From a virus, in IMG/VR virus record IMGVR_UViG_3300032334_001355, positions 1 to 23,664 of that record: 23,664 nucleotides of DNA; one strand, given 5' to 3'. Made by a program: the position numbers and the translations under genes. This document shows positions 1,980-11,006 of the stretch, piece after piece; within the stretch, counting starts at the first letter, position 1; every line of letters begins with the position of its first letter. The notes beneath the pieces were generated by a model that ran no database searches, was not told where the DNA came from, and saw only the letters and a program-made list of their open reading frames with translations.

Positions 1980-2555
1980 TCATTCCAGCCAGGCCCAAGC
2001 CTGACGCTTCCGAACCCGGCGGATCGTTTCTGGATCAACGCCATACTTGGCGGCCAGATCGATCTGCCGGGCCTTGGAGTCGCGGATTTCTTTTACAGCG
2101 TCTTCGGTCAGCTTCGCGGCGTGCTGATCCTCCCCTCGGCATCGCGTTCCCTGCTCTACAGAGTCCGCGATGTTCTCTCGCTGCGTCGCCCATCGTAAGT
2201 GTCGCGGGTTGACGCAGCCCTCATGTCCCTTGCCGCAGGAATGCGCCGCGCCATGGTCATGGGTCGGTGCTTCACCACATGCTAGGCTGCACATCACGCT
2301 GGACGCGTGGGTTGTCCGTCCTTCGAAGACGACAGCGGCGTACCCGTTCGGAAAACGAGCGAACGGCCAAATCAGGCAGGCTTCACCCTCATGGGCGACA
2401 TACTGATCGAGCCACGCGCGTGGCTCGCCTTGGGCCGCCTTCCCCGCCAGCGGATCGCCGTGGGTCCGAAGGCGATGATAGTGATTACGGCAGTAGCGGC
2501 GCGCGTAATGCGACTTGCCGCATCCATCGACAGAACATAGGGCTCTGGTAGCCAT
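1980..2555 (-). CDS. HNH homing-type endonuclease, antisense insert (HNH-1)
   Basis: The 191-aa protein has three parts. An N-terminal zinc-finger-like motif is C7-x4-C12-x9-C22-x2-H25 followed by YHRL. A central HNH_3-type nuclease core covers residues 60-130 (CLIWPF, then HDHGAAHSCG, then GCVNPRHLRWAT, ENIAD). A C-terminal helix-turn-helix covers residues 147-191 (KLTEDAVKEIR, KYGVDPETIRRV, AWAWLE). Such proteins are selfish DNA-cutting enzymes common in phage genomes. I chose ATG 2555 rather than the GTG 15 bases upstream because GGAGG lies 8 bases before the ATG. The gene runs against all its neighbours and its stop is 10 bp from the capsid stop. The flanking genes are intact, so it is free-standing rather than intron-borne. 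A conserved hairpin precedes it at 2585-2620. Confidence 0.9.
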   Translation of the reverse strand: MATRALCSVDGCGKSHYARRYCRNHYHRLRTHGDPLAGKAAQGEPRAWLDQYVAHEGEACLIWPFARFPNGYAAVVFEGRTTHASSVMCSLACGEAPTHDHGAAHSCGKGHEGCVNPRHLRWATQRENIADSVEQGTRCRGEDQHAAKLTEDAVKEIRDSKARQIDLAAKYGVDPETIRRVRKRQAWAWLE

Positions 2556-2584
2556 TCGCTGATCCTCCACGATCGCGTTGGTTA

Positions 2585-2620
2585 GGGCCGGATGACGGTG
2601 TTAGCGCACCTCTCCGGCCC
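2585..2620 (-). promoter_or_regulatory. Leader hairpin of HNH-1
   Basis: On the minus strand the outer stem is GGGCCGG/CCGGCCC (7 bp) and the inner stem is GGTG/CACC with a 6-nt loop CGCTAA. TAACC follows immediately, then GGAGG 16 nt after the outer stem, then the HNH-1 start. The same architecture occurs ahead of HNH-2 and of the antirepressor operon. A -10-like CATACT lies just upstream, so the hairpin may be the 5' end of the transcript. The structure is seen; the regulatory role is inferred. Confidence 0.6.
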
Positions 2621-2690
2621 GCTCAGTATGCCCCAAACCCGCACTAGAAGCAGCCGGAAACGGCGTTTGGCAGACTGAAAGGAAAGAGCA

Positions 2691-3038
2691 ATGCGCATCA
2701 CCATCACCAAGGGCGGCATCTACGGCGCTGATGGCAAGGAAGTCCCGGTCGGCACCGAACTGACTGTGGCTGACCACGACGACGACACCCCGCACCCCTG
2801 GGCTGGTCGCTTCGAGGTCATCTCGGGCGGCGATGAGGCCAAGGCCAAGGGCGGCAAGAAGACCCCCGTCACCAATCCAGCCAAATACGAGGCCAAGGCC
2901 AAGGGCGACGAGTGGTTCATCTTCGACGCCGGCGGCAAGGAACAGGGCGGCGCCCTGCCCGAGAAGGACGCCGAGGACTTCAACGGCCTGTCGGACGAAC
3001 TGAAGGTTGCCTTCGTCGCCGAACACACGAAGGCCTGA
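2691..3038 (+). CDS. Small phage head-region protein of unknown function
   Basis: This 115-aa protein starts at ATG 2691 after AAAGGAAAG, a good ribosome site. The N-terminus reads like a small beta domain (MRITITKGGIYGADGKEVPV, then GTELTVADHDDD). A Lys/Ala/Gly-rich linker with two AKAKG segments follows (residues 48-75), and the C-terminus is acidic and helical (EKDAEDFNGLSDELK). It directly precedes the head-completion genes, with three bases between its stop and the next start. Small proteins with this beta N-terminus are common between capsid and connector genes in phages, but I know no experimentally defined role. The HNH-1 insertion separates it from the capsid gene, so it may once have been directly downstream. 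Confidence 0.75.
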   Translation: MRITITKGGIYGADGKEVPVGTELTVADHDDDTPHPWAGRFEVISGGDEAKAKGGKKTPVTNPAKYEAKAKGDEWFIFDAGGKEQGGALPEKDAEDFNGLSDELKVAFVAEHTKA

Positions 3039-3041
3039 CCA

Positions 3042-3536
3042 GTGAGTGGTTACGGATCAGATCAAGGGTTCACCGAGTGGGCGGCCGAGAACGGCTATTC
3101 CACATCGACCGGAGACCTGACCGTAGCCCAGCTGCGCCAGCGGGCCAGCGACTATCTCGACGGCCTCTACGGTGCCCGGTTCCGCGGCGAGCCGACCGGC
3201 GGCATCGACCAAGAGCGCGCCTGGCCCCGGATCAACGCGACGGCGTGGAAGACACCCGTCGCCGCCGACGTGATCCCGCGCAACGTCATCATCGCTAGCT
3301 ATCACGCGGCCATCCAGGAGAGCGCCAACCCTGGCAGCCTGTCCGTTGGCGTCACAGCCGCCGGCGCCGTGAAGCGCGAGCGCATCGAAGGCGCTGTGGA
3401 CACCGAGTATTTCGAAGGATCCGGCGATGTCGCCGCCGACGCCACTGTCAGGCTGAGCGCCGTTGAAGGCTTGCTCGCCCCGTTCCTGATGTCAGAAGTT
3501 GCCGCCGCTGGCCTGGGCCTTTGGTCCGTCGGCTGA
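3042..3536 (+). CDS. Head completion / head-tail connector protein (DnaT-like annotated family)
   Basis: The 164-aa product is helical and starts at GTG 3042 (MSGYGSDQGFTEWAAENGY); the ribosome site before it is weak. The pattern FTEWAAENGYS, LRQRASDYLDGLYG, then WPRINATAW and VPRNVIIASYHAA-like helices matches the phage family often labelled a putative DnaT-like ssDNA-binding protein. By gene position that family is an adaptor joining portal and tail (head completion). The replication-type name is probably an annotation artefact. It sits in the head-closure gene cluster and overlaps the next gene with TGATG, which suggests translational coupling. The broad connector role is likely; the exact position in the neck is not visible. 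Confidence 0.7.
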   Translation: MSGYGSDQGFTEWAAENGYSTSTGDLTVAQLRQRASDYLDGLYGARFRGEPTGGIDQERAWPRINATAWKTPVAADVIPRNVIIASYHAAIQESANPGSLSVGVTAAGAVKRERIEGAVDTEYFEGSGDVAADATVRLSAVEGLLAPFLMSEVAAAGLGLWSVG

Positions 3537-3904
3537 TGCCCAAGTTCGACTACGGCCGCCCGCTGGCGACGGTAAACCGGCTGTTTGATCGTTATGGCCA
3601 GCGCGGCGCGATCCGGCGCACGGTCCCCGGCACAGGCCCCAAGTACGACCCAGGCCCTTCCACATATTCCGACGATCCGGCCGATATGGTCGTCACCGAC
3701 TTCAGCAGCCGCGAGATCGACGGCACCCGCATTCTGGCGACCGACAAGAAGATCATGGTCGCGCCCGGCACGCTGACCACGGCGCCCGCACTTTCCGACA
3801 AGGTGGTCCAGGCCGACGGAACGGTCTACAACATCGTTCCGCCGATCCAGACGAAGCGCCCGGCAGGGACGACGCTGGTCTACATCCTTCAGGGCCGCCG
3901 ATGA
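3536..3904 (+). CDS. Head closure / neck protein
   Basis: This 122-aa protein starts at ATG 3536, which overlaps the upstream stop as TGATG; I prefer it to a TTG 15 bases upstream. It is basic at the start (MPKFDYGRPLATVNRLFDRYG) and then beta-rich (TDFSSREIDGTRILATDKKIMV, then VYNIVPPIQTKRPAGTTLVYILQGRR). A small beta-barrel with a VVQADGTVYNI-type segment in this position is typical of phage head-closure (stopper) proteins that seal the connector after DNA packaging. No membrane or signal features are seen. The next gene overlaps by ATGA. Family identity was not confirmed; the assignment rests on size, composition and gene order. Confidence 0.65.
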   Translation: MPKFDYGRPLATVNRLFDRYGQRGAIRRTVPGTGPKYDPGPSTYSDDPADMVVTDFSSREIDGTRILATDKKIMVAPGTLTTAPALSDKVVQADGTVYNIVPPIQTKRPAGTTLVYILQGRR

Positions 3905-4107
3905 CCACGAAGAACTCTGTGATGCTGGCGACCGCCACGCTGCAGGACATCATCAGCAAGGGTAAGGCGATGAGCGCGTGCGCGATGCGCGAGGACGGCG
4001 CCGGACCCCGCGAAGCGCTCCGCAACGACGCCCACGCCCTGCTGGACGCCTATCTCGACCACATGGCTGACGCCGGCACCCACGCCCGAGCCATCATTCC
4101 GGATTGA
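3901..4107 (+). CDS. Small helical phage protein, unknown
   Basis: The 68-aa ORF begins with the ATGA overlap at the end of the preceding gene and ends three bases before the minor head gene, so it sits tightly in the operon. The protein is predicted helical (LATATLQDIISKGKAMSACAM, LRNDAHALLDAYLDHMADAGTHA) with no motif I recognise. Tight packing on both sides and matching codon use argue that it is real. Its role is unknown; it may be a small neck or assembly factor. Confidence 0.6.
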   Translation: MTTKNSVMLATATLQDIISKGKAMSACAMREDGAGPREALRNDAHALLDAYLDHMADAGTHARAIIPD

Positions 4108-4110
4108 TCC

Positions 4111-5145
4111 ATGGCCACCACCCGCGCGAACCGGCAGGTCTATGCCGACCTGTTGGCTCGCTATGGTGTGGCGGTCGCTGACGCGTTCTTCCGGGCGCTG
4201 GACAGCCTTCGGGCCGGGGTTGAGCTACAGCGGGTTACAGCGGCTCTCCAGAACGGCGACATCGACGCGGCGCTGGAAGCCCTCCACATCGACCCGGAAG
4301 CGCTGAACGAGATCGCCGAGCGCGCCAAGCAGGCTCATGACGAGGCCGGCAAGGTGACTGCGTCCGCCATACCGAAGCGGAAGCCAGACGGAACTGCACT
4401 GATCGTGCGCTTCGATGGGCGAAACCCTGAGGCAGAGGCGTGGGTTTCGCGCCATTCGTCGGATCTAATTACGCGCATCACGACGGAGCAGCGCGATCTG
4501 GTCCGCGCCACCCTCACCGAAAGCATGCGCCGAGGCGCAAACCCTCGGCAGGCCGCGTTAGACATCGTCGGGAAGGTGAACAGGGCAACCGGCAAAAGAG
4601 AAGGGGGCATTCTCGGCCTGTCGAAACCCCAGGCGGAATATGTCGCTTCGGCGCGAACCGAACTGGCCAGCACCGACCGCGCCTCTCTTGAAAACTATCT
4701 GGGCCGGGGGCGGCGCAACAAGCAGTACGACGGACACGTCCGACGGGCGTTGAAGACGGGCAAGCCGATCCCCGCCGAGGCCGCAACCCGGATGATCCGC
4801 GACTATGAACGTTCGCTACTGAAGCAGCGAGGCGAGCTCATCGGGCTGCACGAGACCTTTGCGGCCATGGAGCAAGGAAAGCAGGAGGCCTACAGGCAGG
4901 CGGTCGCGTCGGGCAAGATCGCCGAGGCCACCGTCACCAAAACTTGGCGAGCGCTGAGCGTCCGCAACTATCGACACCAACACCGGGCCATCAACGGGCA
5001 GAAGGTCGGGCTCAACGGACTATTCGTGCTGCCCGATGGCACGACCATGAAGCACCCCCACGACAAAGACGCCCCGGTCAGCCACACGGCCGGATGCCGG
5101 TGCCAAACTGACTATTCAGTCGATTTCTACGCGGCGTTGCGGTAA
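4111..5145 (+). CDS. Minor head protein, Mu F / SPP1 gp7-like
   Basis: The 344-aa product carries the C-terminal signature of phage head morphogenesis proteins. This is a region of W-R-A-L-x-x-R-x-Y-R-H-Q-H-R (about residues 280-295), followed by a G-x-F-V-L-P-D-G loop and the Cys-rich end H-T-A-G-C-R-C-Q. The preceding 250 residues are mainly helical and charged. Proteins of the Mu gpF/SPP1 gp7 family bind the portal inside the procapsid and act in early head assembly or DNA exit. Usually this gene is near the portal, upstream of the capsid gene; here it follows the connector genes. ATG 4111 follows the previous stop by three bases with a weak ribosome site. An HNH gene is inserted downstream. 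Confidence 0.75.
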   Translation: MATTRANRQVYADLLARYGVAVADAFFRALDSLRAGVELQRVTAALQNGDIDAALEALHIDPEALNEIAERAKQAHDEAGKVTASAIPKRKPDGTALIVRFDGRNPEAEAWVSRHSSDLITRITTEQRDLVRATLTESMRRGANPRQAALDIVGKVNRATGKREGGILGLSKPQAEYVASARTELASTDRASLENYLGRGRRNKQYDGHVRRALKTGKPIPAEAATRMIRDYERSLLKQRGELIGLHETFAAMEQGKQEAYRQAVASGKIAEATVTKTWRALSVRNYRHQHRAINGQKVGLNGLFVLPDGTTMKHPHDKDAPVSHTAGCRCQTDYSVDFYAALR

Positions 5146-5152
5146 AAATGAC

Positions 5153-5188
5153 GGGCCGACGAGGTGTTACCAGCACCTACATCGGCCC
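5153..5188 (+). promoter_or_regulatory. Leader hairpin of HNH-2
   Basis: The outer stem is GGGCCGA (5153-5159) with TCGGCCC (5182-5188). The inner stem is AGGTG (5162-5166) with CACCT (5174-5178), closing loop TTACCAG. TAACC follows, then AGGAGG 17 nt on, then ATG 5216. The architecture and several flanking bases match the HNH-1 leader, and a related form precedes the gene at 9256. An A/T-rich -10-like stretch (TAAAAAT) lies 3 nt upstream of the stem. It lacks a T-run, so it is not a typical terminator. Confidence 0.6.
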
Positions 5189-5215
5189 TAACCGAAACGA
5201 CCGTAGGAGGGTCGA

Positions 5216-5929
5216 ATGGCTGAGCATCGGATATGCTCTGTTGAAGGCTGTGAGAAGCCCTATCTCAGCAAGGGCTTGTGCAACGCCCATTACATCCGTC
5301 AGCGGAAACACGGGTCGCCAAGCGGCGGCGCCTATCCGACTAACAATTCAGGTCCATGCAGCGTCGAGAGTTGCGAGACGAAAGCGTGGTCGCTCGGCTA
5401 TTGCCGGAAGCACTACAACCGCCTGAAGCGAAATGGCGATCCTTTGGCCGGCATCGCTTTTCATGGCGAGCAGGCCGCTTTTCTACGGCATGCCGCATCG
5501 GCAACCGCTGAAACATGCATTCTCTGGCCCTTCGCAATAGCGTCCAACGGGTACGGAGTGACGGGCTCCGGGCCGTCTAGGGGAGCGCACCGGGCGGCCT
5601 GCATTATCGCTCACGGAAGCCCGCCAAGCCCGGATCACGAAGCTGCGCACTCGTGCAACGTCAGGAGTTGCGTCAACGGCAAGCACCTTCGCTGGGCGAC
5701 GGTTGAGGAGAACATGGCCGACAAGATCGGACATGACACCCACCTTCGCGGCGAACGGAACCACCAAGCCAAGCTGACGGAAGCCGATGTTCTGGCGATC
5801 CGGACGATGGAAGGCCGGTTCATCTTGCGAGAGGTGTCGGAACGCTACGGCGTTTCGATCTGCACTGTTCACCGAATCTGGCGTGGGGAGGCATGGACAT
5901 GGCTCAAGGAAGCTTCTCCAGCGCCGTAA
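5216..5929 (+). CDS. HNH homing-type endonuclease with duplicated zinc finger (HNH-2)
   Basis: The 237-aa protein is a clear relative of HNH-1. It has two N-terminal zinc-finger-like repeats with identical spacing, C7-x4-C12-x9-C22-x2-H25 and C48-x4-C53-x9-C63-x2-H66, where HNH-1 has one. The HNH core follows (CILWPFAIASNGYG, then PDHEAAHSCN, CVNGKHLRWAT, EENMADK), and a helix-turn-helix ends the protein (KLTEADVLAIR, ERYGVSICTVHRIW, EAWTWL). AGGAGGGTCGA precedes ATG 5216. The C-terminus runs seven residues (KEASPAP) past the conserved WTWL into the next gene. It therefore overlaps the gp10-like gene by 31 bp and also covers that gene's ribosome site. The role is DNA cleavage for self-propagation. 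Confidence 0.9.
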   Translation: MAEHRICSVEGCEKPYLSKGLCNAHYIRQRKHGSPSGGAYPTNNSGPCSVESCETKAWSLGYCRKHYNRLKRNGDPLAGIAFHGEQAAFLRHAASATAETCILWPFAIASNGYGVTGSGPSRGAHRAACIIAHGSPPSPDHEAAHSCNVRSCVNGKHLRWATVEENMADKIGHDTHLRGERNHQAKLTEADVLAIRTMEGRFILREVSERYGVSICTVHRIWRGEAWTWLKEASPAP

Positions 5930-6492
5930 CCGCATGGGTCCGCGAGACGAAGGAACGGGCCGTCGCCGTCCGAAACGGCAGCACCCAGGCGATCATCGAG
6001 ATCATGCAGGAGCCGGGGCCGTCTCGCGCCACCACGGCTGCCGCAGTCTCCACGGGGGCTGGTCTCGGCAAGGTGAAGAAGGACGGAAGCCGGGGCGTCA
6101 GCAAACGCGCCTTCGGCCCCGTAGCGGCATCGGGCGGCGCCGGGCGCTTGCCCGTCGATACGGGCTTCCTCAGGGCGTCCCTTCAGGTCTCCATCGGAGA
6201 GACGATCCCTGCCCTCGTTGAGACGCCCAATGATGGTTCGTTCAGCTGGGATTCGGGAGAGGTCACCCTCGCCCTTGAAGGCGCGGAACTGAGCGACACG
6301 GTAATCGCGGTCTACACGGCAGCCTACGCCCGCAGGATCGAATACGGCTTCAAGGGCAAGGACGAGAAGGGGCGGACCTACAACCAAGCCGGAACGCGGT
6401 TTGTCGCCCTGGCAGCGCAGAGGTGGCCACAAGTGGTCGCACAGGAATGCGCGAAAGCTCAAGCAGCGGTCACAGCCCAGAACAAGGGATAG
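5899..6492 (+). CDS. HK97 gp10-like tail completion / neck protein
   Basis: The 197-aa protein lies immediately before the tail terminator. It carries the usual features of the gp10 family: a helical N-terminus, the motif R-L-P-V-D-T-G-F-L-R-A-S-L (residues 79-91), and a late Y-A-R-R-I-E-Y-G-F patch followed by a C-terminal helix. The protein joins the closed head to the tail. I chose ATG 5899 because GGGGAGG stands 7 bases before it; the alternative ATG 5893 is only one base after that site. That ribosome site lies inside the HNH-2 coding sequence, so the two genes are probably translationally linked. A Gly/Lys-rich loop at residues 55-65 (AGLGKVKKDGSRG) is somewhat unusual. Confidence 0.75.
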   Translation: MAQGSFSSAVTAWVRETKERAVAVRNGSTQAIIEIMQEPGPSRATTAAAVSTGAGLGKVKKDGSRGVSKRAFGPVAASGGAGRLPVDTGFLRASLQVSIGETIPALVETPNDGSFSWDSGEVTLALEGAELSDTVIAVYTAAYARRIEYGFKGKDEKGRTYNQAGTRFVALAAQRWPQVVAQECAKAQAAVTAQNKG

Positions 6493-6495
6493 AAT

Positions 6496-6918
6496 ATGGC
6501 CGATCCCGCCATCGTCGCCGACCTGCTTCTGGCTCGCGCCGCGCTGATGGAGACCGAAGGGCCAGCCCTGCCGGTCGCAATGCCTGACGTGGCTTTCCAA
6601 CCGCCCGTCGATGGCCAAGGCGGCGCCCTGCCCTATCTTCGCGTCGAGGTCTTCTCCAACCAGCCCGCATGGGAAGGCCTGTCGTCAGGCCGCATCGACC
6701 AAGGGCTTCTGCAGGTCACCGTCGTTTGGCCCGAGGGCGAAGGCATCGTCGCCGCCCGCCGCGCCGCCGCAGATGTCATGGCCCACTTCCACAAGGGGCT
6801 GCGCCTTTTCGGCCCAGCCAACCGCGTCACCGTCAACAAAGAGCCTTGGGCCGCATCGCCGATCACAGAGGCAGCTGAGACGCTGACGCCCATCACCATC
6901 AGTTGGACGGCTGTCTGA
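6496..6918 (+). CDS. Tail terminator protein
   Basis: The 140-aa protein has the organisation of the phage tail terminator family (DUF4128-like): an N-terminal helix (ADLLLARAALMETEG), a P-Y-L-R-V-E-V-F strand, a G-L-L-Q-V-T-V-V-W-P-E-G strand-turn, a long helix (AARRAAADVMAHFHKG) and a closing strand pair (TLTPITISWTAV). Terminator subunits form a ring on the completed tail tube and bind the neck. It starts three bases after the gp10-like stop, with AAGGGAT ahead of ATG 6496. It is the last gene before the 332-bp non-coding gap and the terminator at 7132. Confidence 0.8.
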   Translation: MADPAIVADLLLARAALMETEGPALPVAMPDVAFQPPVDGQGGALPYLRVEVFSNQPAWEGLSSGRIDQGLLQVTVVWPEGEGIVAARRAAADVMAHFHKGLRLFGPANRVTVNKEPWAASPITEAAETLTPITISWTAV

Positions 6919-7013
6919 GCCTTGACCTTCTGATCGGCACGCTCCATTCTCGCCTCTCGGTGTTACGGCGAGAGTTCACCCGATCAACCTCGCGCCCCAG
7001 AAATGTGGTTCTT

Positions 7014-7123
7014 GGCAGGCATGGCGAGGCCCGGCGAGGCGTGGTTTGGCAAGCCGAGGTGTGGCTAGGCAGGCGTGGCTTGGCATGTCGGGGTCCGGCG
7101 TGTCACGGCAAGCCTAGGCAGGC
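7014..7123 (+). repeat. Irregular GCNNG pentamer tract in the 6919-7250 gap
   Basis: About 22 consecutive five-base units fit the frame GCNNG (examples GCATG, GCGAG, GCGTG, GCAAG, GCTAG, GCTTG). There is a phase slip of one base about halfway and again near the end. The tract is G-rich on this strand, has no convincing reading frame and is not an exact tandem repeat. It fills the centre of the gap between the tail terminator and tail tube genes. The rest of the gap holds a small hairpin (CTCTCG/CGAGAG near 6953-6974), the terminator at 7132 and a 10-bp palindrome CCGATATCGG at 7171. No gene is visible in the gap. Confidence 0.7.
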
Positions 7124-7131
7124 TGACCAAT

Positions 7132-7157
7132 AGGGCGATCCTTCGGGGTCGCCCTTT
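7132..7157 (+). terminator. Rho-independent terminator, copy 1
   Basis: AGGGCGATCC (7132-7141) pairs with GGGTCGCCCT (7146-7155), with one T-G wobble, around a TTCG tetraloop, and ends in TTT. It closes the head operon before the tail tube gene, which has its own strong ribosome site. Copy 2 at 11266 differs by one base in the loop. Confidence 0.75.
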
Positions 7158-7250
7158 CCATATCTGATTACCGATATCGGACCCGGCGCCGCCGGACGAT
7201 GCCCTCTCGCCGCGTGGGCTGCGGACCCCCAAACATCAAAGGAGAGACAG

Positions 7251-7724
7251 ATGGCCATTGGCACGTCTGAAGGGTCAACCGTGTTCATTGGACCGACGAC
7301 CTCCGCAACCACCCTAGCCGCGCTCAAGGCCCTGACGGGTTGGGTTGAGATCGGCAGCGTCGAATCCATCGGCGAGTTCGGCCCCCAGGCGCAGGACGTG
7401 AGTTTCACGCCGCTGAAGGGACCGAGCGTTCAGCACCTCAAGGGCGCGATCGACAACGGCACTCTGCCGATCGTCTACGCCCACGACCCGCTGGATGCCG
7501 GTCAGATCGCCCTGCGCGCCGCCTCCGGGACGAAATACGAGTTCGCGGTGAAGATCGTGCTGGCTGACGAAGCCGATGAAAACGACAAGCCAACGACTTT
7601 TTATGCTCGCGGTCCCGTCTTCGGGAACCGAACCAATGTCGGCGGCGCAAACGACGTCAGGAAAAGAACGAGCTCCATCGGTCTGAACGTCTTCGAAGAA
7701 GAGCCCGGCACGGCCGTCACCTAA
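7251..7724 (+). CDS. Major tail tube protein
   Basis: The 157-aa protein matches siphophage tail tube subunits in size and pattern. It starts MAIGTSEGSTVFIGPTTSAT, then has G-W-V-E-I-G-S-V-E-S-I-G-E-F-G, a loop with PQAQDVSFTPLKG, a central L-P-I-V-Y-A-H-D strand and an F-Y-A-R-G-P-V-F-G-N-R segment near the end. Such proteins stack as hexamer rings to form the tail tube. AAAGGAGAG ahead of ATG 7251 is a very strong ribosome site, and the gene stands alone behind a terminator. Both points fit a highly expressed structural protein. The following genes are the tail assembly chaperones, in the usual order. Confidence 0.82.
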   Translation: MAIGTSEGSTVFIGPTTSATTLAALKALTGWVEIGSVESIGEFGPQAQDVSFTPLKGPSVQHLKGAIDNGTLPIVYAHDPLDAGQIALRAASGTKYEFAVKIVLADEADENDKPTTFYARGPVFGNRTNVGGANDVRKRTSSIGLNVFEEEPGTAVT

Positions 7725-7792
7725 GGCGCGTCCCTCCCCTCAACTTAACGGCCGGGTCGCGCCCGCGCCGTCCTTTTCCCAAGGACACCTCT

Positions 7793-8236
7793 ATGAGCCT
7801 CGCATCCCTCAACTTCGCCACGGCCGCCAACGAAGGTCGCGTTCTGACGGTGCTTCATCCGATCGAGCGCACCACGCTGTTGGGAGCCGACGGCAAACCC
7901 GTCACCATCACCTTGTTGGGCAAGGACTCCGACGCCTTCGTGGCGGCCGAGAACGCCGCTCGCAACCGAGCTGTCGAGCAGGTCACTAGCGGGGCCAAGT
8001 TCAGCGCCGCCGCCTCCGACGAGGAAGCCGCTTCCAGCCTAGCCCGCGCCACGACCGGATGGTCCGGTGTTGTGCAGGGTTGGATCGATGGAACCGACGA
8101 CGAGACGCCAGCGAAGTTCTCGGTCGAGAACGCCCGCAAACTCTATCTGAACCGGGGCGTGAAATGGCTTCGGGATCAAGCCGACCGCTTTGTCGGAGAC
8201 CGGGCGAATTTTTTGCCAGCCTCGCCGACGAACTGA
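7793..8236 (+). CDS. Tail assembly chaperone, lambda G-like
   Basis: The 147-aa protein precedes the tape measure region and is the zero-frame product of a frameshift pair, as in lambda G and GT. The first half is a small beta domain (GRVLTVLHPIERTTLLGADG, PVTITLLGKDSDAF). The second half is helical, with N-A-R-K-L-Y-L-N-R-G-V-K-W-L-R-D-Q near the end, typical of chaperone proteins of this type. It binds the tape measure protein during tail assembly and is absent from the mature particle. AAGGACACCTCT precedes ATG 7793. Translation that does not shift ends at TGA 8234-8236. Confidence 0.85.
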   Translation: MSLASLNFATAANEGRVLTVLHPIERTTLLGADGKPVTITLLGKDSDAFVAAENAARNRAVEQVTSGAKFSAAASDEEAASSLARATTGWSGVVQGWIDGTDDETPAKFSVENARKLYLNRGVKWLRDQADRFVGDRANFLPASPTN

Positions 8237-8592
8237 TCGAGTTCGTCGAGGCCGTCGCAGGCGGCGTCGATCAAAGGCGCCGCCCTCCGCTGCCAGCCGC
8301 TCTTGCTCACGTCTGGTTCGCGTTCGTCGATCTCCAGGCCACCCGAGAGCGCGGCATGGCCGTTGGGCCTATTCAGTGGCGCGAGATTGAGGCCTACGAC
8401 GCCGCCACCTTCGCTTGTCTCTCAGCCTTCGACAAAAGGCTGATCCGGAGATGCGACGACGCCGCAGAGGTCATTCGGCTGGGGATCAAACCGAAGCCGA
8501 CCAGCGTGAGCAGCATGAAGGCCAACCTTCGAGCGGCCATCGCCGCACGCAAGGCTCGCCAAGGTCAGGGTGACTTGTCGTCGGGAGCGTGA
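7793..8592 (+). CDS. Frameshifted tail assembly chaperone fusion, lambda GT-like
   Basis: A -1 shift on T TTT TTG (8209-8215) joins the first 141 codons of the G-like gene to 125 codons of the overlapping frame that ends at 8592. This gives a fusion of about 266 aa. The junction reads RANFL then ASLADELIEFVEA. The T part is helical and basic at the end (KANLRAAIAARKARQGQGD). It has no good ribosome site of its own, which supports synthesis only as a fusion. In lambda the GT protein recruits tail tube subunits to the tape measure. The shifted fraction cannot be read from the sequence. Confidence 0.85.
8209..8215 (+). other. Programmed -1 ribosomal frameshift site (T TTT TTG)
   Basis: In the zero frame the codons are AAT TTT TTG, giving the X XXY YYZ heptamer T TTT TTG. 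Slipping back one base re-pairs both tRNAs and enters the T frame, which stays open to 8592. The zero-frame stop lies only 21 bases after the heptamer. Position and layout match the conserved tail chaperone frameshift of siphophages. Confidence 0.85.
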
Positions 8593-8617
8593 CACCCTCC
8601 GAATCCTTCGGAGGGTG
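8593..8617 (+). promoter_or_regulatory. Hairpin burying the ribosome site of the MmpS-like gene
   Basis: CACCCTCCGAA (8593-8603) pairs perfectly over 11 bp with TTCGGAGGGTG (8607-8617) around a 3-nt loop. It begins directly after the chaperone stop codon and ends three bases before ATG 8621. The descending arm contains GGAGGG, the only ribosome site for that gene. It could repress translation unless opened. No T-run follows, so a terminator role is less likely. Confidence 0.65.
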
Positions 8618-8620
8618 GCT

Positions 8621-8983
8621 ATGACAAAACTACTGCGAGCTACGGTCGTGTTGCTGGCCTTTGGCACGTTGAGCTGCGAAGCGCCGCCACCCCGCGAGGA
8701 GGTCACGATGACCTATAAGGTGACCGGCGCAGCCAAAAGCGCCTCCATAACGATCCTGAACGAGCAAGGCGGAACCGAGCAGCACGACTTCAAGGTGCCG
8801 GTGAACTATCCGATCCGAGTATATCCCGGAGCTTTCGTCTCAATCATCGCTCAGAACATGGGATCCGGCGATATGGCGTGCGATCTCGAAGTAGAAGGCG
8901 TATCGTTCCGGCACGCGAAATCCACTGCGCAATTCGGCGTGGTCACATGCTCCGGCAATGTTCCGGAGCCCTCAGCGCGATAG
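8621..8983 (+). CDS. MmpS-like domain lipoprotein (accessory gene)
   Basis: The 120-aa protein begins with a lipoprotein signal (MTKLLRATVVLLAFGTLSC; lipidated Cys19) and then a Pro-rich linker. The mature part is a compact beta domain with the pattern seen in MmpS-type proteins: V-T-M-T-Y-K-V-T-G (28-36), A-S-I-T-I-L-N-E-Q-G-G (41-51), a V-S-I-I-A-Q-N-M-G-S-G-D segment (73-84) and Cys87/Cys110, which probably pair. Mycobacterial MmpS proteins are membrane-associated partners of MmpL transporters; outside that setting the domain's role is unclear. ATG 8621 was chosen because GGAGGGTGGCT precedes it, rather than an upstream start inside the chaperone frame. It is not part of a normal tail module and looks like cargo that may alter the host surface during lysogeny. 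It overlaps the convergent repressor gene by 12 bp. Confidence 0.7.
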   Translation: MTKLLRATVVLLAFGTLSCEAPPPREEVTMTYKVTGAAKSASITILNEQGGTEQHDFKVPVNYPIRVYPGAFVSIIAQNMGSGDMACDLEVEGVSFRHAKSTAQFGVVTCSGNVPEPSAR

Positions 8984-9124
8984 TCCCCGCTCAACCAATC
9001 TTCGTATGGCTTCAGAACGAGTGGGTATGTCCTCCTGCGTCCGTCGCCAGTCATCAATGGCCTTCGCAAGCTCGTCGGAAAGGCGCAGCTGCACCAGCTG
9101 GGGAAGGGTAACTGCTCTAGCCAT
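8972..9124 (-). CDS. Ribbon-helix-helix repressor, 50 aa
   Basis: This short minus-strand gene encodes MARAVTLPQLVQLRLSDELA, then a helix KAIDDWRRTQ, then P-T-R-S-E-A-I-R-R-L-V-E-R-G-L-S-R. The pattern is classic for ribbon-helix-helix DNA binders: a strand with alternating residues (LVQLRLS), helix, turn with R-S-E-A, second helix. Length and fold match Arc-type phage repressors (Arc is 53 aa). It diverges from the antirepressor operon across a nested inverted repeat that would be its operator. There is no ribosome site before ATG 9124; a -10-like TATTAC on the minus strand ends about 10 bases upstream, so the message may be leaderless. Its 3' end overlaps the lipoprotein gene. Confidence 0.8.
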   Translation of the reverse strand: MARAVTLPQLVQLRLSDELAKAIDDWRRTQEDIPTRSEAIRRLVERGLSR

Positions 9125-9133
9125 GCATTTCGT

Positions 9134-9175
9134 GTAATACACCACTTGACGGCGGTCAACGCTTTCACGTATTAC
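9134..9175. promoter_or_regulatory. Divergent operator/promoter: nested inverted repeats
   Basis: The outer arms are GTAATAC (9134-9140) and GTATTAC (9169-9175). The inner arms are TTGAC (9146-9150) and GTCAA (9155-9159) around GGCG. On the plus strand TTGACG (9146-9151) and TATTAC (9170-9175) make a sigma-70-like promoter with an 18-base spacer. On the minus strand TATTAC sits just before the repressor gene. A repressor bound here would cover both promoters. Repeats are seen; function is inferred. Confidence 0.65.
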
Positions 9176-9183
9176 ATGAATAC

Positions 9184-9219
9184 GGCCCGACGAGAGGCGG
9201 CAACCTCAATCGTCGGGCC
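9184..9219 (+). promoter_or_regulatory. Leader hairpin of the antirepressor operon
   Basis: GGCCCGACGA (9184-9193) pairs with TCGTCGGGCC (9210-9219), and GAGG (9194-9197) with CCTC (9204-9207), interrupted only by an AA bulge, around loop CGGCAA. TGACC follows, and GGAGG stands 21 nt further on, ahead of ATG 9256. With the predicted promoter, transcription would begin almost at the base of the stem. The layout matches the two HNH leaders. Confidence 0.65.
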
Positions 9220-9255
9220 TGACCAGAGCAACCGATCTATGGAGGATCGTTCACA

Positions 9256-9426
9256 ATGGCTTCCGCAGCCTATAGCACGCCTGCCCGGCTGAACCCAACC
9301 TGGGTGCCCGCCCCCTACCCGCTCGGCGATCTCGCCCGCTTCTTCAGCGGTCGCGGAAATGCCCCGGCCATCGCGTCCAATGTCCCAGCCCGTCCGGCTC
9401 CCGCAGCGGAGTTGGTCGCATGCTGA
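9256..9426 (+). CDS. Small protein, first gene of the antirepressor operon
   Basis: The 56-aa frame starts at ATG 9256 with GGAGGATC 10 bases upstream and ends at TGA 9426, overlapping the next start (ATG 9420) by seven bases. The peptide is Ala/Pro-rich (MASAAYSTPARLNPTWVPAP, then YPLGDLARFFSGRGNAPA) with no membrane segment and no family I recognise. The strong ribosome site, start-stop overlap and placement right after the promoter and hairpin argue that it is translated, perhaps as a coupling leader for the next gene. Confidence 0.5.
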   Translation: MASAAYSTPARLNPTWVPAPYPLGDLARFFSGRGNAPAIASNVPARPAPAAELVAC

Positions 9427-9821: not shown

Positions 9822-10008
9822 CGCCCTTGTCGAACCACCATGTTTGTGAGACGGCCGGGCTATTATTCAGCGCGAACAGAGATAGAACATTTCATTAATG
9901 CTCCACCGGTTTGGCGGGTTGGCTGTCGAAATGCTCTCGACCCAGCCAGTCAGGGAAGTAGGGCTGAACCAATCCCCGCAAGGGGTTCCGCCCCACTACG
10001 GCGGCACA

Positions 10009-10050
10009 CGCGGCAGGCCAGCTACTTTCGACGGGAACTGGCCTGCCGCG
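10009..10050 (+). promoter_or_regulatory. Long hairpin before the antirepressor gene
   Basis: CGCGGCAGGCCAG (10009-10021) pairs perfectly over 13 bp with CTGGCCTGCCGCG (10038-10050) around a 16-nt loop. It lies 62 bases before ATG 10113 and has no T-run. The 291-bp spacer around it (9822-10112) also holds an AT-rich stretch near 9880-9902 and a short hairpin CCCC-GCAA-GGGG near 9974-9985, with no convincing gene. It may control translation or stability of the antirepressor message. Confidence 0.55.
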
Positions 10051-10112
10051 CTCACATCAGCCTCGACGGACCTGTAGTGGCGGCACGTCTTGGCGAACGG
10101 AGACGAGCGTTT

Positions 10113-11006
10113 ATGCGACGCACACCAAAAGTCCAGACCGAACCGAAACCCGCCAAGGCCTTCAAGCCGAAGGCATCACAGCCGCCCACCATCATTGTGG
10201 CGGCAAATGAGGGTCACGAACCCTCTCCCGCGAACCTCGTCGTCTTGCCCTTCCATGGCGATGAGATCGTGACCTTCCAGGCAGACGATGGCCCTCGCGT
10301 TGCTATGCGGCGGATCGTCGAAAACATGGGGCTCGATTGGAGCAGCCAGCACAAAAAGCTGGTCGATCAAGGGCAGAAGTTCACGTGTGGCGATATCACC
10401 ACGCGTGACAGCCTCGGACGCCTTCAGTCCATGACAACGATGCCCGTCGCCAAGCTCGCGCTATGGCTAGCGACCATCAACCCCAACAAAGTCCGCGCGG
10501 ACTTGCGCGACAAAGTCGAACTCTATCAGGCAGAATCGGCCGTCGCCCTTCACGACTACTGGACCAAAGGCGTCGCCATGCGCGGCGATCTCGACGGTAT
10601 CGTGACAGGCCTCGATCCCAAGGTGGCTTCGCAGATCGGCGGCATCATCAAGGGCATCGTGCACAACCAGTTGTCGGTCATCCTGCCTCAGTTGATCCAG
10701 GCTGAGGTCACCTCTCACCAATACGTCGGGGTTCGCGGCCTCACGGCAGGCGAAGTGCTCGACATGGCTGGCTTCACCAACCGAAAGGGTCTTCGCGGCC
10801 TCGCTGGCTGGGCATCCAGTCAGTTGCGCAGGTTCCACGCCGCTAAAGGGACGGCATCGCCCCTGGCCACCCTGGGCCGTTCTACGGCCTACGTGTTTGA
10901 CAGGGCTCTCTCGCGGGAGTGGCTGGATGTCGGCGGGCGCCAAGCGATTGAAATGAAGATCGCTGAGCGGCGCGGCCAGACGGTCATGAAGCTGGTGCGG
11001 ACATGA
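10113..11006 (+). CDS. Phage antirepressor, P22 Ant-like N-terminal domain
   Basis: The 297-aa protein has a basic, Pro/Lys-rich start and then a P22-antirepressor-type N-terminal domain at residues 40-152. It includes L-P-F-H-G-D-E-I-V-T-F, V-A-M-R-R-I-V-E-N-M-G-L-D-W-S-S-Q, then K-L-A-L-W-L-A-T-I-N and a helix ending in A-L-H-D-Y-W. The remaining 145 residues form a separate domain (LTAGEVLDMAGFTNRKGL, SSQLRRFHAAKGT, ALSREWLDVGGRQAIEMK). Proteins of this kind bind and inactivate phage repressors. ATG 10113 has GGAG 10 bases upstream; the 91 codons open upstream of it cross the hairpins and are not used. It is probably controlled by the divergent RHH repressor at 8972. The C-terminal domain was not identified. 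Confidence 0.82.
   Translation: MRRTPKVQTEPKPAKAFKPKASQPPTIIVAANEGHEPSPANLVVLPFHGDEIVTFQADDGPRVAMRRIVENMGLDWSSQHKKLVDQGQKFTCGDITTRDSLGRLQSMTTMPVAKLALWLATINPNKVRADLRDKVELYQAESAVALHDYWTKGVAMRGDLDGIVTGLDPKVASQIGGIIKGIVHNQLSVILPQLIQAEVTSHQYVGVRGLTAGEVLDMAGFTNRKGLRGLAGWASSQLRRFHAAKGTASPLATLGRSTAYVFDRALSREWLDVGGRQAIEMKIAERRGQTVMKLVRT

Follow-up and report, generated by a model that had tools for sequence, protein, structure and literature searches.

Why should three separately controlled genes of one phage begin with the same hairpin leader, and which strand carries the RNA that this structure serves? The question is raised by IMG/VR virus record IMGVR_UViG_3300032334_001355, of which positions 1 to 23,664 (hereafter the window) contain capsid, head and tail genes, two HNH genes and one Ant gene, as identified with PHROG. 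An earlier note on this DNA had described, upstream of both HNH genes (HNH1 and HNH2) and of an antirepressor operon (site 3), a GC-rich hairpin (hp1) with TRACC directly after the stem and GGAGG further on, and the three hairpins were found as described in coordinates, arms, TRACC and GGAGG spacing (table 1). Among the 100 stems of at least 7 bp in the hp1 size range listed on both strands of the window, only three are then followed by TRACC; these are the three sites, a Shine–Dalgarno (SD) sequence is present at each, their sense-strand folds have z values of −4.2 to −4.5, and the three-site layout is confirmed as lying well beyond chance. The order of elements is the same at every site, namely: sense promoter, hp1, URACC, a second hairpin containing the SD (hp2), AUGGCU and, in the first approximately 40 nt of the open reading frame (ORF), an antisense sigma70-like promoter. 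The note had missed hp2, the conservation of ATGGCT, the promoter on the antisense strand and the fact that the base pairs follow an antisense code. The conserved RNA most likely lies on the strand opposite to the reported hairpins, and it is highly probable that the sites specify cis-antisense RNAs of the SymR/R1162 type, which would repress translation.

The claim that the stems change in a compensatory manner proved real, as swapping 3′ arms among 62 distinct elements lowered pairing in all helices (z = 12.9 for the outer stem, 11.0 for the inner stem and 5.1 for the SD hairpin). The oppositions tolerated in these helices are one-sided. In the outer stems of 90 leaders no sense G.T was seen (22 expected from swapped arms), with 60 A.C (76 expected) and 11 C.A (11 expected); an independently fetched set gave 22 A.C/C.A and no G.T/T.G, and the only non-Watson–Crick oppositions of the inner helices were 11 A.C. 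The pattern agrees in three differently fetched sets. Since a sense A.C is a G.U on the complementary strand, it is the antisense RNA of the gene that is under selection. In the antisense alignment, 90.4% of the cells pair, with 65 double-change cells versus 18.6 in shuffles, and pairing falls to 25–50% when the structures are slid along it. The antisense fold is better than the sense fold in 91 of 91 distinct leaders; this energy gap is partly due to composition, but z values that allow for composition still differ (mean, −4.95 antisense versus −2.68 sense). A two-domain antisense fold is obtained in 76/76 cases, with an AGCC-GGUYA closing stem in 70 of them, which accounts for the conservation of URACC and ATGGCT. 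The SD hairpin arms vary freely (GATC, ACCT, GAAC, GTTA and others). A CCUAACC-GGAGG pairing, which RNAalifold gave on a MAFFT alignment, was unsupported under the strand and arm-swap controls.

The foremost alternative is that hp1 is a 5′-terminal stem protecting or insulating the mRNA and that hp2 sequesters the SD, with no antisense RNA. Known leaders of this kind are those of T4-type homing endonucleases (I-TevI, mobE, segB), in which translation is restrained at the SD by hairpins intrinsic to the mRNA (PMC3014915). Both hp1 and hp2 do fold in the sense RNA, and the independent promoter that the earlier note had placed ahead of each stem is borne out by a sense profile (TTG...17 nt...TANAAA) at a constant distance from hp1. 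This explanation is nonetheless improbable, as sense G.U is excluded and sense A.C tolerated, it is only in the antisense RNA that the conserved URACC and GCU find pairing partners, and an antisense promoter is kept within the ORF across unrelated genes; structure selected in the mRNA, as in the T4-type leaders, was not found, the pairing code following the antisense strand instead. The exclusion of sense G.U also contradicts stabilization of the mRNA 5′ end as the main function. Thus, of the suggestion of a common control or stability element for cargo genes, the single control element stands and the stability stem falls, the leader stem being best understood as the DNA template from which a cis-antisense RNA would be copied. 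The start-associated sequences of Cluster K mycobacteriophages (SAS and its extended form, ESAS) also place the SD in a small inverted repeat with a second one upstream, ahead of many genes (PMC3203893). However, SAS is a single invariant 13-mer found only in Cluster K, for which its authors saw little support for an mRNA hairpin, whereas here the sequence varies and pairing is kept; the phage elements also lack GGGATAGGAGCCC at the start codon.

The putative antisense promoter shows in the coding sequences themselves. ATGGCT, with GCT as second codon, opens the ORF in 70 of 91 leaders versus 4.8% of control ORFs, and otherwise unrelated leader ORFs share ATTCTA-like letters at approximately +12 to +18, read as TAGAAT on the other strand. 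When the highest-scoring antisense sigma70 site within 100 nt is taken for each ORF, it is located between sense +10 and +15 in 42 of the 76 leader ORFs, which come from unrelated families, and in 33 of 454 controls (p = 6e-25), with a −10 profile of T84 A82 ... T67 and a likewise enriched −35 (TTG; p = 2e-8). The start expected from such a promoter is the A of AGCCAU. A T-rich stretch (mean, 4.9 of 10) follows the hp1 complement in most elements, but the U-tract is lacking in the HNH1 and Escherichia coli copies, and an intrinsic terminator on the antisense strand as sole function was discarded.

Table 1. Coordinates of the genes, hairpins, promoters and predicted RNAs of the window, and of int-alpA RNA matches in other records.
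Feature	Position	Strand	Remarks
HNH1, zinc-ribbon HNH homing endonuclease, start ATGGCT	1980..2555	−	PHROG HNH families
SD hairpin hp2 of HNH1	2561..2574	−	GATC GTGGAG GATC
hp1 hairpin, HNH1 mRNA leader	2585..2620	−	TAACC 2580-2584 next
Predicted antisense RNA opposite HNH1 start	2550..2624	+	R3 match 2550-2621, 49.1 bits; fold z = −5.18, two hairpins
Putative antisense promoter inside HNH1	2515..2543	+	TTGCCG 2515-2520, 17-nt spacer, TAGGGC 2538-2543
HNH2, zinc-ribbon HNH_3 homing endonuclease, start ATGGCT	5216..5929	+	Pfam HNH_3 8e-7; PHROG
hp1 hairpin, HNH2 leader	5153..5188	+	TAACC 5189-5193 next
SD hairpin hp2 of HNH2	5198..5214	+	CGACC GTAGGAG GGTCG
Predicted antisense RNA opposite HNH2 start	5148..5221	−	R3 match 5152-5221, 62.5 bits; fold z = −5.06
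Putative antisense promoter inside HNH2	5228..5256	−	TTCTCA 5251-5256, 17-nt spacer, TATCCG 5228-5233
Divergent 50-amino-acid protein, putative ribbon-helix-helix (Arc/Mnt-like) regulator	8972..9124	−	class inferred from sequence
Sense promoter of antirepressor operon	9146..9175	+	TTGACG 9146-9151, TATTAC 9170-9175; from sequence
hp1 hairpin, antirepressor operon (site 3)	9184..9219	+	TGACC 9220-9224 next
SD hairpin hp2 of antirepressor operon	9233..9249	+	CGATC TATGGAG GATCG
ORF 1 of antirepressor operon, 56 amino acids, start ATGGCT	9256..9423	+	
Predicted antisense RNA opposite antirepressor operon start	9179..9261	−	R3 match 9183-9261, 33.5 bits; fold z = −5.20
Putative antisense promoter at site 3	9269..9298	−	TTGGGT 9293-9298, 18-nt spacer, TATAGG 9269-9274
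ORF with anti-repressor Ant C-terminal part	9840..11006	+	phrog_524 2e-40
int-alpA RNA (RF02996) matches	L199 2138-2214; L204 1990-2075; L202 2411-2498 (just under gathering score)		

From the structure, its strand and conservation, the promoter statistics and the homology-level matches described below, we infer that this phage produces an antisense RNA and that this RNA represses translation. Each site would be a face-to-face transcription unit, in which a sigma70-like promoter would start the mRNA at, or slightly upstream of, hp1, and a second promoter in the ORF would give rise to an antisense RNA of approximately 75–80 nt, with its 5′ end at codon 2 (sense +5), running back across the start codon, the SD, URACC and hp1 to end slightly past the latter. 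Its hairpin A would be closed by the AGCC...GGUY stem (GGUY being the complement of URACC) and expose anti-SD bases in the apical loop; hairpin B would be the complement of hp1, often with a U-rich stretch next to it. Opposite HNH1, for instance, the predicted RNA begins with 5′-AGCCAU, carries the anti-SD in the loop of hairpin A and has the hp1 complement as hairpin B. Pairing with the nascent or free mRNA would mask the SD and AUG, so as to keep low the translation of potentially harmful accessory genes (a homing endonuclease, or an antirepressor/Icd operon). At site 3, where the sense promoter sits inside an inverted repeat (GTAATAC/GTATTAC) and the 3′ end of ORF 1 overlaps the start of the following ORF (9420), repression of ORF 1 would be handed on by translational coupling.

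Three known antisense RNAs invite comparison. The sar RNA of phage P22 is a small two-hairpin RNA made inside ant and complementary to the ant ribosome-binding site, near Arc/Mnt-like repressors; its logic would be that of site 3. SymR of E. coli (RF01809) represses SymE mainly at translation from a promoter inside symE, where a silent −10 mutation releases repression (PMC1891008). Like the phage elements, SymR (about 77 nt) lies opposite the 5′ end of its target, is annotated from sense +5 and has its promoter inside the ORF (both predicted in the phage), with two strong hairpins over the SD and AUG and the SD complement in a loop; the target differs, being a LexA-controlled toxin-like protein rather than HNH genes and an antirepressor operon. 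The R1162/RSF1010 antisense RNA of IncQ plasmids (RF00043) has the same order GCC-UAACC ... SD hairpin ... AUGGCU, with a plasmid replication operon as target. SymR and the three RNAs predicted in the window adopt similar folds, with z values of about −5.1 to −5.3.

A covariance model built from other phage leaders alone recovers all three window copies. This antisense model (R3), whose training set comprised viral and prophage-type elements but not the window copies, SymR or R1162, also recovers SymR at 936-1010 (annotated 936-1012) and the R1162 RNA on an IncQ1 plasmid (41.4 bits), the latter showing that a common covariance model with the phage elements holds. Sense +5 is where its matches end, and thus the predicted 5′ end, in the window, in records L214-L293 and in SymR. 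A phage-trained sense model (R1) finds the symE leader and gave low scores on gammaproteobacterial and actinophage copies, which R3 mended; a further model with automatic structure (R2) captured hp1 only partly and was superseded by R3. In the opposite direction, the Rfam SymR model scored 18.4 bits at HNH1 (gathering score, 61) and at best 39.0 elsewhere, on L205, while the Rfam R1162 model matched at full length at the three window sites (20.1, 23.2 and 19.3 bits; gathering score, 55) and reached 38.9 bits outside the window. An Rfam scan of the window gave no match at threshold, and with such scores the window copies are not to be filed as SymR or R1162 RNA proper.

Some points weigh against antisense repression as proposed here. 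The strand-bias counts include related sequences, though the three separately fetched sets concur; the models are home-made, so that their E-values are rough (short calibration); and the Rfam SymR and R1162 scores remain under the gathering cut-offs. Within the window, the antisense −10 of HNH1 is weak, and this copy may be drifted or inactive; the R3 score is lowest at site 3, and the predicted 3′ ends of the HNH1 and site 3 RNAs have no good U-tract.

Recurrence beyond the window was clear. A pattern search of viral contigs (3′ arm, TAACC or, more generally, TRACC, SD and ATGGC) matched 68, nearly all with a complementary 5′ arm approximately 30 nt upstream, and a loop-only pattern matched 83 contigs, the majority true elements with new outer stems. 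In a pattern-free sample of 80 viral loci picked by HNH protein similarity alone, the element lies directly upstream of HNH in about 55, mostly with coordinates ending at sense +5 (nine of these loci belonged to the R3 training set). A match in Brevibacillus phage Jimmer2, with the same loop but without ATG or SD, was rejected as probably a terminator. The hosts include members of the Alpha-, Gamma- and Deltaproteobacteria, Acidobacteriota, Cyanobacteria and Actinobacteria, with Pseudogemmobacter, Rhizobium, Brevundimonas, Paracoccus, Gluconobacter, Luteimonas, Desulfomicrobium and Terriglobia among the named carriers, along with Rhizobium phage RHph_N3_2, Sulfitobacter phage phiGT1, Synechococcus phage Yong-M3-232, Mycobacterium phage KashFlow, Gordonia phage BENtherdunthat and Acinetobacter phage Acba_1. 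A copy can also be recognised in six E. coli genomes; in the two examined it is flanked by a divergent YlcI/YnfO-family gene on one side and an Icd-like gene on the other, a layout as at site 3.

The genes that follow the elements mostly encode homing endonucleases (HNH, GIY-YIG/NUMOD) or belong to antirepressor/Icd-type operons. HNH_3, zf-His_Me_endon, NUMOD4, NUMOD3, HNH/HNH_5 and endonuclease VII are the most frequent families in a set of 88 distinct downstream proteins, of which one PHROG HNH family matches up to 24; the remaining proteins are encoded by small ORFs that open an operon. Within 3 kb downstream of these operon-type elements, Bro-N, ANT/KilAC, Rha, P22_AR_N and integrases are found repeatedly, and several of the elements stand beside a divergent small ribbon-helix-helix or helix-turn-helix protein. 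The association with mobile homing endonucleases in many contexts would suit an element acting as DNA, either as the boundary of a mobile cassette or as a site for recombination or protein binding. This is very unlikely, since the hairpin lies between promoter and ORF, away from the insertion boundary, is also found ahead of antirepressor and Icd operons, and shows a strand-asymmetric pairing not expected of a double-stranded DNA site; relatives without HNH1 have a different short spacer after the capsid gene, the HNH1 insert reaching beyond the hairpin, and the cassette edge of the earlier note is thereby abandoned. Equally little credit can be given to a riboswitch-like recognition of hp1 and URACC in the mRNA by a trans-acting RNA-binding factor or ligand, which the conserved loop (CUACCAA/CGNNAA) and URACC might suggest, as the antisense fold accounts for the conserved parts, the loop yields a YU-type antisense loop and the downstream genes have no metabolic theme in common. 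A CsrA-type GGA loop, integron attC, Helitron/IS91 ends, put-type antitermination and ribosomal-protein mimicry were dropped, by reasoning, for poor fit.

Several further observations concern individual copies. In the Desulfomicrobium metagenome-assembled genome, int-alpA RNA occurs approximately 0.6–0.9 kb downstream of the antisense element at three separate loci, likely reflecting a shared mobile-element architecture. In Synechococcus phage Yong-M3-232 (L384 795-971), the annotated start of the HNH coding sequence is upstream of the element; translation probably begins instead at the ATG at L384:966, which follows the SD hairpin. Arthrobacter phage MargaretKali (L474 901-1040) has the hp1/SD-hairpin layout without URACC before an unannotated ORF near the genome end, starting MKSIAQRIQEAVQIDEATGCWLWQRMLD, which looks like a further HNH gene. 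Two actinophage copies (L385 898-979 and L386 888-964) show, in the sense reading, an apparent extra outer stem around hp1 (e.g. CAAGTGA/TCACTTG). Some elements and their downstream ORFs are identical or nearly so in different records (L055/L066, L013/L022, L017/L025/L030/L038/L064/L067), which suggests widely shared prophages. Elsewhere in the window, positions 7010-7120 are GC-rich, with imperfect GGC(A)AGGC/GTGGCTTGGCA repeats between gene ends, and ORFs 7793-8236 and 8059-8592 overlap upstream of the tape-measure region and could be a tail-assembly chaperone frameshift pair.

On balance, it is plausible that SymR, the R1162 RNA and the phage elements form one ancient, portable superfamily of antisense ‘safety catches’ spread across several phyla, which would have been captured repeatedly by homing endonucleases of several unrelated folds and by antirepressor, Icd, replication and toxin genes, and would have forced unrelated proteins to start with Met-Ala because the 5′ end and the promoter of the antisense RNA occupy the first codons. 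A literature search within a limited collection found no paper connecting these RNAs with homing endonucleases, which is weak evidence of novelty. The antisense reading is directly testable in laboratory E. coli, given the copies in six genomes of this species. If correct, two separately catalogued families of small antisense RNAs would be tied to a large set of uncatalogued phage elements, a protein oddity (the ATGGCT-encoded Met-Ala start in unrelated genes) would be explained as an RNA constraint, and there would be a concrete answer to how free-standing homing endonucleases stay harmless to their phage hosts.

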